NCBI GenBank assembly: GCA_002928735.1
Contig: PERL01000004.1
Location: forward strand, 124,001 to 188,000
Source of the DNA: Hyphomicrobium sp.
GTDB lineage: Bacteria > Pseudomonadota > Alphaproteobacteria > Rhizobiales > Hyphomicrobiaceae
Reading direction: 5' to 3'
DNA length: 64,000 nucleotides
This document shows positions 55,070-63,958 of the stretch, piece after piece; the stretch's first letter is position 1; every line of letters starts with the position of its first letter. The notes under the pieces were generated by a model, which was not told where the DNA came from, did not search any database, and saw only the letters and a list, made by a program, of their open reading frames with translations. Position numbers and translations under genes: made by a program.

Positions 55070-57664
55070 CTACCGCGCCAGTTCCTGCTTCACCTTCTCG
55101 GCCAGCTGCGGCAGCGAGAACGGCTTCGGCAAGAACGCGACTTCTTCACTGCCCAGCGTCTCGCGGAAGGCCTCGTTGGGATAGCCCGAGACGAAGATCA
55201 CCTTGATCGAAGGATTGGTCTTGCGCAGTTCGCGGAACATGGTCGGCCCGTCCATCTCCGGCATCACGACGTCGGTCACCACGATGTCGATTTCGCCGTT
55301 ATGCGCCGCCACGATATCAAGCGCCTCCTGGCCGTCGGACGCTTCCAGAACCTCATAGCCCTGCCGCGTCAGCGCCCGCACCGCGAACGACCGCACGACA
55401 TCCTCGTCTTCGACGAGCAGCACGCGCCCAGTGCCGGTCAGATCAGACGACTTCGGCGTCACTGGTTCTTTGGCCGGTGCCGCAGCCAGCGCGATCGCCG
55501 ACTCCTCATCCTCAAGATCGGGAATGTAGCGCGGCAGATAGATGTGGAACGACGTCCCACGCCCGATCGCGCTCTCCGCATAAATGAACCCGCCCGACTG
55601 CTTCACGATGCCATAAACCGTCGAAAGCCCAAGCCCCGTTCCCTTGCCCACGGCCTTGGTCGTGAAGAACGGCTCGAAGATCTTCTCCAGAACATCCGCC
55701 GGCATGCCCGTGCCCGTATCGGAAACTTCCACGCCGACGTATTCGCCCACCGGCATGCCCTCGCGGCCAAGCTTCTGGCTATCCCGTTCGGTGATGTTGC
55801 GCGTCTTGATCGAAAGCACGCCGCCATCGGGCATTGCATCACCCGCATTGACGGTCAGATTGACGATGACACGCGAGAACTCGCCCTTATCGACCTTCAC
55901 GTACCAGAGATCGCGGCTCGGCTGCACTTTCAGCGTAATCTTCTCGCCAAGCGACGTCCGCAGCATCGATGTGTTTTCGCTGATCACTTCATCGAGCAGC
56001 AGCGATTCCGCCTGCAACGTCTGCCGGCGCGAGAACGACAAGAGCTGCCGCACCATACCCGCCGCGCGGTAGGCGCTGCCCTGGATATTCTTGATGTCCT
56101 TGTAGGCCGGATCCGAAATCGCATGCGTCTGCAGCAGGAGATCCGAATAGCCGATAATCGCAGTCAGAACGTTGTTGAAGTCATGCGCGATTCCGCCGGC
56201 GAGCTTGCCCACCGCTTCCATCTTCGACGACTGCGCATACTGAACCTCGAGCGCCTTCTGCTCGGTCGCGTCGACCACATAGAGCATGGCCGCCTCGCGG
56301 TCGGTCGCCTGCTCGACCATGGGGCTCATATAAACGCGCCGCACGTTGTTCGGCGACAGCGCCGTCTCGAGCGGCTGACCGCCCGCCTTGCCCGCCAGAA
56401 CACGGCGCAACTGGTCTTCGATCTCGATCCGCGCCGCCTTGTCGTCCGCGCGCGCCAGCACATCCACCGCCCGTTTGCCGACGCCGCCCGTCCCGTCGAG
56501 CATCAGCCGCGCAAACGCGCCGTTCGAACTGGTCACCCGCCCATCCGCCGACACGCTGGCGATTCCGAACGGCGCCGACTGGAAGAAGCGCGCAAAGCGC
56601 ACATCGCTCGCTGGCGCATCGAAGCCCAGACCGTGATCGGCCTCCCGGTTGATGAAGGCGATCAAACGGTGCCCGTCGCGATGCGTGCGCGCCACCAGAC
56701 GCACCGGCAGCAGCCGGCCGTCTTCGCGCGTGGCATCGATATCGAGCGAGATCATGTCTTCCGCGCCCGCCTGTCGCGCGCCTTCGATCAGCGCCACGGT
56801 TTCGGCATTGAGAATGTCCGACAGCCGGACAACGCGATTGACGAGCGGCTGATTTGGATAGCCGAGCCAGCGGGCCAGCGTGCCGTTGATATGACGGACC
56901 GTTCCGCCCTGATCGACCGTCAGCAAGCCGACGGGCGATGCATCGTAGAAGCCCAGCGTATCGACGAGGCTCTGCCGCGCCGCAGCCACCCGCATGCGCT
57001 CTTCCGTGACGTCCTGCACCGACCACAGAGTCGTATGCCCGGTCTCCCGGCCGCGTCCCAGGTCCAGCGGCGACACATCTATGCGCAAGATACGCTGCGG
57101 CAGCGCGCCCCCAGCCGACAGCCGGAAATCTTCCCCATGCCGGTCGCCGCGATCGGCGGCCCGGTTGAGCCGGAAGAATGCTTCGCGCACGGCCAGATCG
57201 GGGCCGAAAGCCATATCGAGCGCCGAAACCTCACGCGAGGACAGCCGGCCGACAAGTTCCTCGAGCTTGTGATTGACGAACAGCACCGAACCATCGCGCC
57301 GCGCGACCATCAACCCGCGATCAATCCCATCGCTGATGCTGCGCGCGATATCGTCGGAGAGAAGGCGGTCGCCGATGCGGATATGGCCCGCCAGCCAACC
57401 GAAGACGAAGAACACGCCCAGGATGGCAAAGGAAGCAAGCACGGCGAGCAGCACTGGCGTCCCGGCCGTGCTCGCGGCAAGCGTCACCGCTACGACGCCC
57501 AGCGCGAACACCGCACCCAGCACCGGCAGATAAGACACCGATCCATCCGCGAACGATCCCGGGGTCCCAGACGTTGCCGGGCCGCGTTGGATCGCAACAC
57601 CACTGTCGCTCATAAAGTCGAAGGGTATCTGATTCGAAGAGGGGACGGCCTCAAGTGGCGGCAT
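55070..57664 (-). CDS. cckA: Cell-cycle hybrid histidine kinase CckA
   Basis: An 864-residue membrane hybrid kinase. Two N-terminal helices (about residues 45-68 and 72-95) are followed by PAS-like sensor domains (about 115-470). The HisKA domain has the phosphorylated histidine in [20 protein letters not shown] (near 494). The ATPase domain has the N, G1, F and G2 boxes ([34 protein letters not shown]), and a receiver has aspartate in [12 protein letters not shown] (near 798). Architecture and motifs match CckA, which drives CtrA and CpdR phosphorylation through ChpT. ChpT and CtrA are not in the window. GAGG lies eight bases before the chosen ATG. Confidence 0.93.
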
Positions 57665-58001
57665 ATCAACGGCCTCGTTACGCAGGTCACTATGGTTGTC
57701 GCCGCATGTCTGCAACCGCCTGTGGAGATCGGGGTTGAGAGGGCAGGAACACTGTCAACACTTCGATCATCAGGGTTAAATTGCCGTGAACTTCGGGGTA
57801 TAGGTCGCCTTCAGTGGTGCTTCGTTTTGGGCAATTCGGGATCGGAACGAGTACACAGCCTTTCGAATGCCTCAACGCCAATCCGGAAATGGGGCGCAGA
57901 TTCAATTGCCTTCGCGTTGCATCTTCAGTTTTTGAGTCAGCACCGCCAAGCGCGGTAAGATATCCGGCCACCTCACCCGGCCGACAGGGAGACGCTGCAC
58001 G
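57665..58001. other. Divergent intergenic region cckA/FliO-like gene
   Basis: This 337-base stretch contains the start-proximal regions of cckA and the FliO-like gene. TTAAATTGCCGTGAA (57777-57791) matches the CtrA box TTAA-N7-TTAA with one mismatch. No coding frame is convincing. Confidence 0.4.
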
Positions 58002-61747: not shown

Positions 61748-62485
61748 TCAATCCTCGCGGTAGACCCGCTCGCGCCGCTCGTGGCGCTCCTGCGCTTCCA
61801 GAGAGAGCGTTGCAATGGGGCGTGCATCAAGCCGCTTCAGCCCGATGGGTTCGCCCGTCTCTTCGCAGTAACCGTACGTACCATCCTCGATCCGCGCCAG
61901 AGCCGCATCGATCTTCGAAATCAGCTTGCGTTGCCGGTCACGGGCCCGCAGTTCGAGCGCCCGATCCGTCTCCGATGTCGCCCTGTCGGCCAGATCCGCA
62001 TGCTGCACGCTGTCCTCATGCAGACCTTCAAGCGTCTCCTTGGTCTGCCGGATGATGTCCTCTTTCCAATTCACCAGTTTCTGCCGGAAGTAGAGGCGCT
62101 GATATTCGTTCATGAACGGCTCGTCTTCCGACGGACGGTAATCCGCCGGCAGCACGATGGCCGAGGCTTTGGCACGATCCACGAGTTTCTTATCCGTCTG
62201 TTTCTGAGCAGCCTTGGTCACGGCACGCGACTTCGCCGCCGCAACCGGAGCGGGCGCGGGGACGGCGGCCTTCGCGGCCGGCTTGGCTGAAGTGACTTTG
62301 GCGGCGGTTTTCACGGCGGGTTTTGTGGTTGCCTTGGCAGCAGGCTTGGGCACAACCTTGGCCGCGGCCGTCCGGCTGCCGGCCGCACGCGCCGGCTGCC
62401 GGGCGCTGGCCGAAGCCGTGCTCTTGCCACGGGCGGCGGCAGGCGCCGCTTTGCTGGCTTTCGATTTGTCGTCGCGTTTGCCCAT
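61748..62485 (-). CDS. dksA: DksA-type RNA polymerase-binding regulator with Lys/Ala/Pro-rich extension
   Basis: A 245-residue protein. The last 140 residues match DksA/TraR: YRPSEDEPFMNEYQRLYFRQ near 116, the coiled-coil tip region and a C-terminal globular part, YGYCEETGEPIGLKRLDARP. Only one of the four zinc-finger cysteines remains, as described for alphaproteobacterial DksA. Residues 1-100 are a repetitive alanine/lysine/proline extension not found in E. coli DksA. DksA binds the RNA polymerase secondary channel and works with ppGpp. GGAG lies seven bases before the ATG. Confidence 0.88.
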   Translation of the reverse strand: MGKRDDKSKASKAAPAAARGKSTASASARQPARAAGSRTAAAKVVPKPAAKATTKPAVKTAAKVTSAKPAAKAAVPAPAPVAAAKSRAVTKAAQKQTDKKLVDRAKASAIVLPADYRPSEDEPFMNEYQRLYFRQKLVNWKEDIIRQTKETLEGLHEDSVQHADLADRATSETDRALELRARDRQRKLISKIDAALARIEDGTYGYCEETGEPIGLKRLDARPIATLSLEAQERHERRERVYRED

Positions 62486-62712
62486 GGCCGGTCTCCGCTT
62501 AAGGCACCGTCACGCACTCGAAAAATCCAAGGGTGGGCACGACTCGTGCCCGAGGACCCCGGACGGTCGCGAACCTATTGTCGCGGCCCCGTGTCGGAGT
62601 CAAGGCAAGCGGCCCCTGGCCCGTCCTTCTTTTTATTTTTCTCGTGAATTCTAAGACTTGAGCGAGCCGACGCAGCATGACGCGACAAGACAATTCCACG
62701 CAGTTAACAGCG

Positions 62713-62728
62713 TTAACAAAATCTTAAC
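62713..62728. promoter_or_regulatory. Perfect CtrA-type binding box (TTAA-N7-TTAAC)
   Basis: TTAACAAAATCTTAAC matches the CtrA consensus TTAA-N7-TTAA exactly, with the extra C. A further TTAAC half site lies 10 bases upstream (62704-62708), forming GTTAAC repeats. It is upstream of dksA (minus) and of a putative plus-strand transcript. Confidence 0.6.
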
Positions 62729-62739
62729 TCCTCTGACGC

Positions 62740-62982
62740 AATCTAAGGTTGTTCAAAGGCGATCACGCAACTGATGGGAACACGCCACCTCGCCAGTCTA
62801 ACGTTATCGCCCTTGGAAGGCCAACCGCTCCCACACGGCGCCGATCCACGCAGCTCAAGGCCCGTGTGTCCCCACATCCGGCCGCATCTGCAAATACGGC
62901 GAGGTTCTTCCCGAACACCCGGCCGGGCACATCCACCGGCCCAGCGCCGCCCATGGACCCCACCCATGGGCGGCGCACTTTT
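62740..62982 (+). ncRNA. Candidate non-coding RNA bounded by CtrA box and terminator
   Basis: A strong intrinsic terminator (62944-62982) has no credible coding gene upstream on its strand: dksA runs the other way and the open frames are proline/arginine-rich. A CtrA-type box lies about 15-30 bases before the presumed 5' end. Transcript start is a guess, and I do not match it to 6S, tmRNA or SRP RNA. Confidence 0.35.
62944..62982 (+). terminator. Strong orphan intrinsic terminator
   Basis: GCGCCGCCCATGG pairs with CCATGGGCGGCGC around a short loop and is followed by ACTTTTT. The T-run is only on the plus side, so it acts on plus-strand transcription. No annotated gene ends here. Confidence 0.85.
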
Positions 62983-63094
62983 TCGGCCCTGAGCCACAAA
63001 CGAGGACCCGCCACGCAGTGGCGTTCAGACCCCTTCCCCCGTCTCAAGCATCGCCGTACGGTCCCCATCCCTGCAACCGGACCCCGATGCGCCC

Positions 63095-63958
63095 ATGAAA
63101 TTCGACGGCACGAAGAAATTCGACGGCACGAAAAACTACGTCGCCACCCCCGACCTCAAGGTCGCCGTCAACGCCGCCATCACGCTCGAACGGCCTCTCC
63201 TTATCAAGGGCGAACCCGGCACCGGCAAAACCGTCCTCGCTCTTGAGGTCGCCCGCGCGCTCGGCACGCCCATCATCGAGTGGCACATCAAGTCCACCAC
63301 CAAAGCGCAGCAAGGCCTCTACGAATACGACGCCGTCTCCCGCCTGCGCGACAGCCAGCTCGGCGACGAGCGCGTCAAGGACATCCGCAACTACATCAAG
63401 AAGGGCAAGCTCTGGGAGGCGTTCATCATGGACCGCCGCCCCATCCTGCTCATCGACGAGATCGATAAGGCAGACATCGAGTTTCCCAACGACCTTTTGC
63501 AAGAACTCGATCGCATGGAGTTCTTCGTCTACGAGACCGGCGAAACCATCAAAGCCGCCCAGCGCCCCATCGTCATCATTACGTCGAACAACGAAAAGGA
63601 ACTGCCCGACGCTTTCCTGCGCCGCTGCTTCTTCCACTTCATCAAGTTCCCCGATCCCGACACCATGCAGAAGATCGTGGACGTGCATTTCCCCAACCTG
63701 AAGGGCCGCCTCGTCGCGGAAGCGCTGCGCATTTTCTACGACATGCGTGAGGTTCCCGGCCTTAAGAAAAAGCCCTCGACCTCCGAACTCATCGACTGGC
63801 TGAAACTCCTCCTCGCCGAGGACATCGACTTCGCCACCTTGAAGGAAACCGACAGCCGCAAGCTCATCCCCCCGCTCGCCGGCGCACTCCTGAAGAACGA
63901 ACAGGATGTCCACCTCTTCGAGCGCATCGCCTTCATGAGCCGCCGCAAGGGCGAATAG
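63095..63958 (+). CDS. MoxR-type AAA ATPase
   Basis: A 287-residue AAA+ ATPase. Walker A is GEPGTGKTVLA near residue 39, Walker B is PILLIDEIDKAD near 115, sensor 1 lies in IVIITSNNEKELPDAFLRRC near 152, and the lid domain follows. MoxR-type ATPases usually act with a VWA-domain protein as chaperones for metalloenzymes or envelope proteins; the next gene begins nine bases downstream but only 11 codons are visible. The N-terminus carries an exact-looking KFDGTK hexapeptide duplication. Start chosen at the ATG before this repeat. Confidence 0.87.
   Translation: MKFDGTKKFDGTKNYVATPDLKVAVNAAITLERPLLIKGEPGTGKTVLALEVARALGTPIIEWHIKSTTKAQQGLYEYDAVSRLRDSQLGDERVKDIRNYIKKGKLWEAFIMDRRPILLIDEIDKADIEFPNDLLQELDRMEFFVYETGETIKAAQRPIVIITSNNEKELPDAFLRRCFFHFIKFPDPDTMQKIVDVHFPNLKGRLVAEALRIFYDMREVPGLKKKPSTSELIDWLKLLLAEDIDFATLKETDSRKLIPPLAGALLKNEQDVHLFERIAFMSRRKGE

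Follow-up and report, generated by a model that had tools for sequence, protein, structure and literature searches.

The intergenic DNA between dksA and a moxR-type gene in a Hyphomicrobium sp. genome of 3.34 Mb (G000) spans 609 bp and lies within the 64-kb stretch of contig C4 that was analysed here (the window). Within this region we identified a predicted non-coding RNA gene of ~235 nt, which is preceded by a full binding box for the cell-cycle regulator CtrA and closed by an intrinsic terminator. A first-pass annotation had proposed a CtrA-controlled non-coding RNA at this position, and a non-coding RNA gene is supported by the conserved box, the terminator and the lack of a conserved open reading frame (ORF). 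The features of the locus, in window coordinates, are:

62713-62728, plus strand: full CtrA box TTAA-N7-TTAAC; 0.01 expected per window, position kept in congeners and other genera
62704-62708, plus strand: extra TTAAC half-site 5' of the full box, read from the sequence; by alignment not kept in congeners
62738-62754, plus strand: conserved -10/start block GCAATCTAAGGTTGTTC; spacing of 10 nt from box to CAATCT, constant in eight genomes
62748-62983, plus strand: predicted non-coding RNA, ~235 nt (fold z score, covariation, no conserved ORF, no Rfam match)
62750-62754, plus strand: 5' strand UGUUC of the closing stem P1, with partner GAACA at 62913-62917; paired in 5/5 congeners
62825-62838, plus strand: small hairpin CCG-CUCCCACA-CGG with CUCCC at 62828-62832; CUCCC occurs in 15/15 RNAs
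62913-62917, plus strand: 3' strand GAACA of P1, from the congener structure
62921-62941, plus strand: GC hairpin GGCCGG/CCGGCC 5' of the terminator, from fold predictions
62944-62983, plus strand: intrinsic terminator, 13-bp stem at 62944-62976 and T5 at 62979-62983 (terminator scan; covariation, 14 genomes)
63018-63062, plus strand: conserved block 5' of moxR, outside the RNA, from congener sequences; lacks a canonical -35
61748-62485, minus strand: dksA, flanking gene (Pfam DksA_N and zf-dskA_traR)
63095-63958, plus strand: moxR-type AAA ATPase, flanking gene (Pfam AAA and AAA_5)

The CtrA box (TTAACAAAATCTTAAC) matches the consensus exactly, as had been claimed, and is the single such site in the window (0.01 expected from shuffles); being nearly palindromic, it was scored on both strands. 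The RNA is predicted to start at ~62748-62756. In Caulobacter, the 5' base of activating full CtrA boxes lies near -35 to -39, e.g. at -39 for ctrA P2 (PMC4287350), and 39 bases counted from 62713 lead to 62752, within the conserved GTTGTT block, the RNA start itself being a prediction. The position of the box would fit CtrA activation as in Caulobacter (PMC4287350). An identical motif, TTAA-N7-TTAAC, was obtained by chromatin immunoprecipitation sequencing in Hyphomonas (PMC7200025). The genome encodes a CtrA ortholog (G000:C11:62922-63596) with 84% identity to Caulobacter CtrA, and identities across this genome and seven relatives range from 81 to 85%. As the first-pass annotation had pointed out, cckA (55070-57715, minus strand; named by its domain order) lies ~5 kb from the RNA, and this proximity carries no evidential weight. 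GCGAC, the SciP half-site of Caulobacter, occurs at 62682-62686, ~70 bases 5' of the predicted RNA start; it was given no weight because it is found in G000 and G003 only.

The terminator comprises a stem with 11 of 13 G-C pairs, a 7-nt loop, and the dinucleotide AC between the stem and the T tract, and it is predicted on the plus strand only, which bears out the earlier description of a strong one-sided terminator. A generic terminator scan of the window returned three candidates against 2.9 expected, a count not above chance; the stem at 62944-62976 is far stronger than the scan's two other stems and covaries across genera. Among 14 terminator hairpins, 98.2% of cells were paired and 8 of 12 pairs were doubly changed (33 cells), with a covariation score of 0.606 versus 0.219 for shuffled sequences (0/500), all of which are inflated, since the hairpins had been chosen for pairing. 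G020 and G021 were left out of this set because their stems are longer. Given that the hairpins share a GCGCC base, place and strand despite divergent sequence, they point to one inherited terminator across genera. A DNA palindrome would give equal covariation; the T tract and the bias to one strand make a terminator the better reading.

Folding of the plus strand from 62740 to 62990 was also more stable than in 200/200 dinucleotide shuffles (z -4.5), and a consensus fold of five congeners (RNAalifold) comprises P1, a 5' hairpin, the CCG-CUCCCACA-CGG hairpin, the GC hairpin and the terminator. In this structure 13 pairs were changed on both sides, a number matched by 0/500 shuffles and compared with 1-6 for slid partners, although these counts lean toward structure, the fold having been derived from the same alignment. 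Open frames do cross the interval, including a 165-residue ORF with a TTG start (62749-63246), as accompany high G+C. Nevertheless, starts, stops and frames vary among relatives, each plus-strand frame being interrupted in some relative, and the search of these relatives for a conserved protein across the interval found none, leaving ~235 nt without a conserved protein and bearing out the earlier verdict of no credible gene. Substitutions between G000 and G003 (7, 9, 14) reveal no clear codon periodicity. Rfam (including the EcpR1 family, if contained) returned no match to the RNA at gathering score, the first-pass annotation having recognised no family either. A 6S RNA (RF00013) was rejected, there being no covariance-model match in the window and the 6S gene sitting on contig C3. 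The predicted non-coding nature of the element, its promoter-like block and its terminator are well supported by these comparisons.

Comparison of homologous dksA-moxR regions, which the first-pass annotation had put forward as a check, showed that five of six congeners and several further genera keep both box and terminator, the latter with numerous compensatory changes. For the congener set of six species, intergenic regions were aligned with MAFFT, the rows of G005, which MAFFT had misplaced, being read by eye. Three conserved blocks were identified: a dksA-side block (minus strand) and a moxR-side block, each in 6/6, and a middle block, CGTTAA-N7-TTAAC-N10-CAATCTA-NN-GTTGTTC, in 5/6, with G002 one base off and G004 more degraded. 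G005 has a short intergenic region holding the first and third blocks only, the moxR-side block (63018-63062) included. This three-block pattern, with G005 lacking the middle one, suggests a separate RNA cassette between genes that each keep their own promoter; the block at 63018-63062 is probably moxR's own promoter. A DNA search among congeners alone recovered the RNA in only 3/6. G005 carries two different dksA-moxR contigs (L005, G005:C88; L008, G005:C180), both without the RNA; 6% contamination is listed for its assembly, which may therefore include a second strain.

Beyond the genus, an exact-spacing pattern identified the same promoter at the dksA-moxR locus in G076 and G107 (genus g11) and in G022 (g18), each with a strong hairpin terminator between this promoter and moxR. 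The layout common to five of six congeners, g11 and g18 consists of the box, a 10-nt spacer, CAATCTA-NN-GTTGTT, 200-270 nt, the terminator and moxR; RNA lengths in relatives range from 200 to 390. Promoter scores over 158 moxR upstream regions separated eight at 20-23 of 23 from all others at 17 or below, with a reversed control at 16 or below. Full or nearly full boxes with terminators were also present in G020 and G055 (g16), the start block lying one base nearer, and G018 (g14) carries TTAATCACTGCTTAAA plus a terminator. The terminator is kept with a degraded box in G017 and G077 (g13), G040 (g36), G045 (g41), G011 (g7), G046 (g3) and G021 (g17), in some of which the promoter score is at background level. 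A strong plus-strand terminator shortly 5' of moxR was found in 16/75 dksA-flanked regions versus 3 on the opposite strand; most of these 16 represent the RNA feature, and at least one (G112) appears unrelated. Where dksA is not visible, promoter and terminator occur together only in G055, in which the contig ends. With the defining genomes excluded, promoter score remained associated with the terminator (p = 0.001). An order-wide search of 397 genomes with the promoter pattern, covering few genomes per genus and requiring strict spacing, gave matches at the dksA-moxR locus only. Outside the genus, the five-congener covariance model gave a single clear syntenic homolog (G107, 31.9 bits), all other matches there being weak and off-locus. 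Promoter-terminator synteny can thus uncover RNA genes whose bodies change so quickly that sequence and covariance searches miss them.

Within G000, five sites have the shape of the RNA promoter, the RNA promoter being the sole perfect match, while a reversed control pattern gives two. Further sites with this shape lie 5' of a YadA-like adhesin gene and of other protein genes. In two genera, genes with YadA-head-like repeats (trimeric autotransporter adhesins) have the same CtrA-type promoter shape upstream (L209, G000:C6:23660; L145, G044:C6:23488), and these promoter sites suggest that surface adhesion may be timed by CtrA. Two congeners also share a conserved small ORF, beginning with MIRQLY(D/E)LEDWLFYRS, downstream of a CtrA-type promoter (L214, G000:C8:73036; L201, G004:C12:80317).

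Examination of the RNA bodies revealed one shared word. CUCCC, the complement of the Shine-Dalgarno sequence GGGAG, is the sole 5-mer common to all 15 independent RNAs. In a discovery set of seven RNAs it occurred 13 times versus 3.7 expected (0/500); as several words had been tried on that set, the test was repeated on eight fresh RNAs, which gave 20 occurrences versus 7.1 expected (0/400), three of these held-out RNAs (G011, G046 and G045) resting on weak promoters. The enrichment is strand-specific, the reverse complement not being enriched in the held-out test, and no CUCCC was found in 2.2 kb of flanks from the first seven genomes. In the window RNA, CUCCC at 62828-62832 is predicted to be 97% unpaired and represents a candidate anti-Shine-Dalgarno seed. 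Staphylococcal UCCC sRNAs (small RNAs) carry C-rich anti-Shine-Dalgarno loops. The action proposed here is the same, though in unrelated bacteria and RNAs, making this an analogy only. A CCCC seed was rejected, as CCCC is not enriched and G002 carries GGGG in its terminator loop; GTGGGAG showed no enrichment in the window.

We consider the best explanation of this locus, and a fairly probable one, to be an sRNA that is activated by CtrA and acts in trans by masking ribosome-binding sites. Under this model, phosphorylated CtrA would bind the full box (62713-62728), which sits at the -35 region of a promoter with GCAATCTAAGGTTGTT as its -10/start block, and activate transcription of the ~235-nt gene (62748-62983, plus strand). 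RNA polymerase would halt at the strong terminator ~115 nt 5' of moxR, itself probably transcribed from its own promoter. The folded RNA would expose at least one CUCCC motif for pairing with GGGAG on target mRNAs, blocking ribosome binding, and CtrA activity would thereby also shape translation. What the sequence comparisons establish is the promoter-like block, the terminator, the kept location, the missing conserved coding capacity and the enrichment of CUCCC; that the RNA is transcribed, that CtrA binds and in which sense it acts, that the RNA works in trans and that it has targets is inferred. More tentatively, with the odds somewhat against it, the RNA may extend the CtrA regulon to the post-transcriptional level in much of the Hyphomicrobiaceae: one CtrA-driven RNA with repeated anti-Shine-Dalgarno motifs would repress the translation of many mRNAs while CtrA is active, its body being rewritten from genus to genus.

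Several observations weigh against this explanation. Among congeners, G002 and G004 retain the hairpin with a poor T tract, the box of G004 is degraded, and the RNA gene is missing from G005; further afield, g11 carries the RNA in only 2 of ~21 genomes, a patchy distribution, the RNA body is poorly conserved across genera, and boxes are degraded in several of them. On average, CUCCC is unpaired to an extent little above that of other C-rich words (0.70 versus 0.63; 311/5000), so that accessibility adds little. No target was found, ctrA being the only mRNA tried: across seven genomes, predicted duplexes with ctrA mRNA were no better than those of shuffled sequences, leaving ctrA unsupported as a target.

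The main rival is that the RNA is a 5' leader of moxR, with the CtrA promoter serving as a distal moxR promoter and the terminator as an attenuator subject to conditional read-through. The RNA invariably lies immediately 5' of moxR on the same strand, and the weak T tract behind the hairpin in two congeners would suit such an arrangement; yet a separate promoter-like block, kept in the RNA-less G005, intervenes between terminator and moxR, such an RNA is absent upstream of most moxR genes, and the enrichment of CUCCC would be left unexplained. On balance we regard a leader as unlikely. Slightly less likely still is a genuine non-coding RNA that does not pair with Shine-Dalgarno sequences, e.g. 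a protein-binding or sponge RNA. Its extensive structure, and a body that diverges fast while promoter and terminator stay, are what such an RNA might display, whereas a strand-specific word that is the sole 5-mer in 15/15 RNAs is not readily accommodated, and no known protein-binding motif was identified, although no systematic search was made.

Since the box is nearly palindromic and situated between divergent genes, CtrA might act on the dksA promoter, the terminator merely insulating moxR; the conserved start block, however, faces moxR and keeps a fixed distance from the box, and the promoter-like block of dksA, over 100 bp distant, is also present in G005, where there is no box, rendering this reading very improbable. 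Least probable of all, and barely credible, is a small protein gene: some frames are open in G000, but the variable starts, stops and frames, together with single-base indels and the lack of clear codon periodicity noted above, are difficult to reconcile with coding.

Comparison of the favoured trans-acting sRNA with known systems indicates both its kind and its novelty. CcnA of Caulobacter crescentus is a cell-cycle non-coding RNA of 182 nt from the Cori region, whose CCCC loop acts on ctrA and gcrA; it shares with the window RNA a CtrA box in the promoter region and a C-rich loop for which action at ribosome-binding sites is proposed (PMC8959179). In contrast, the window RNA is ~235 nt long, lies at dksA-moxR, is enriched in CUCCC rather than CCCC, and has no supported pairing with ctrA, differences that set it apart by description. 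EcpR1 of Sinorhizobium meliloti, from the same order and likewise linked to the cell cycle, is a trans-acting sRNA whose conserved loop pairs near ribosome-binding sites, but it has a sigma70 promoter with no CtrA box reported, the loop UCCGCCGCAUCU, and another locus (PMC4414408). An EcpR1-like string, UCCGGCCGCAUCU, in the G000 RNA was attributed to chance, not being kept in G003 or G001. EcpR1 of Methylosinus was detected via Rfam (PMC12403871), unlike the window RNA. GspR is similarly an sRNA tied to the CtrA circuit, but represses ctrA from another locus and is known from Sinorhizobium/Ensifer only (PMC5928217). Caulobacter non-coding RNAs whose start sites carry CtrA motifs resemble the window RNA in promoter and kind of product, with no relation of sequence or locus established (PMC4287350). 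Given the lack of an Rfam match and the differences from CcnA, EcpR1 and GspR, we regard the window RNA as a new RNA family of a kind, CtrA-linked sRNAs, that is already known. Only a few RNAs are under direct control of CtrA, and beyond Caulobacter they have hardly been studied; a conserved CtrA RNA in the Hyphomicrobiaceae, which include budding and stalked bacteria, would offer a defined locus at which to follow the reach of a cell-cycle regulator into translation.

On the dksA side of the locus, the promoter-like block (62570-62655, minus strand) consists of TTGACT followed by AATAGG, is kept in 6/6 congeners, and contains an A-rich UP-like tract near 62628-62640. DksA itself possesses a Lys/Ala/Pro-rich, histone-H1-like N-terminal extension of ~125 residues before DksA_N (Pfam 129-237), and alignments of DksA from other genera of the family to the window protein often begin only at residues 50-110.
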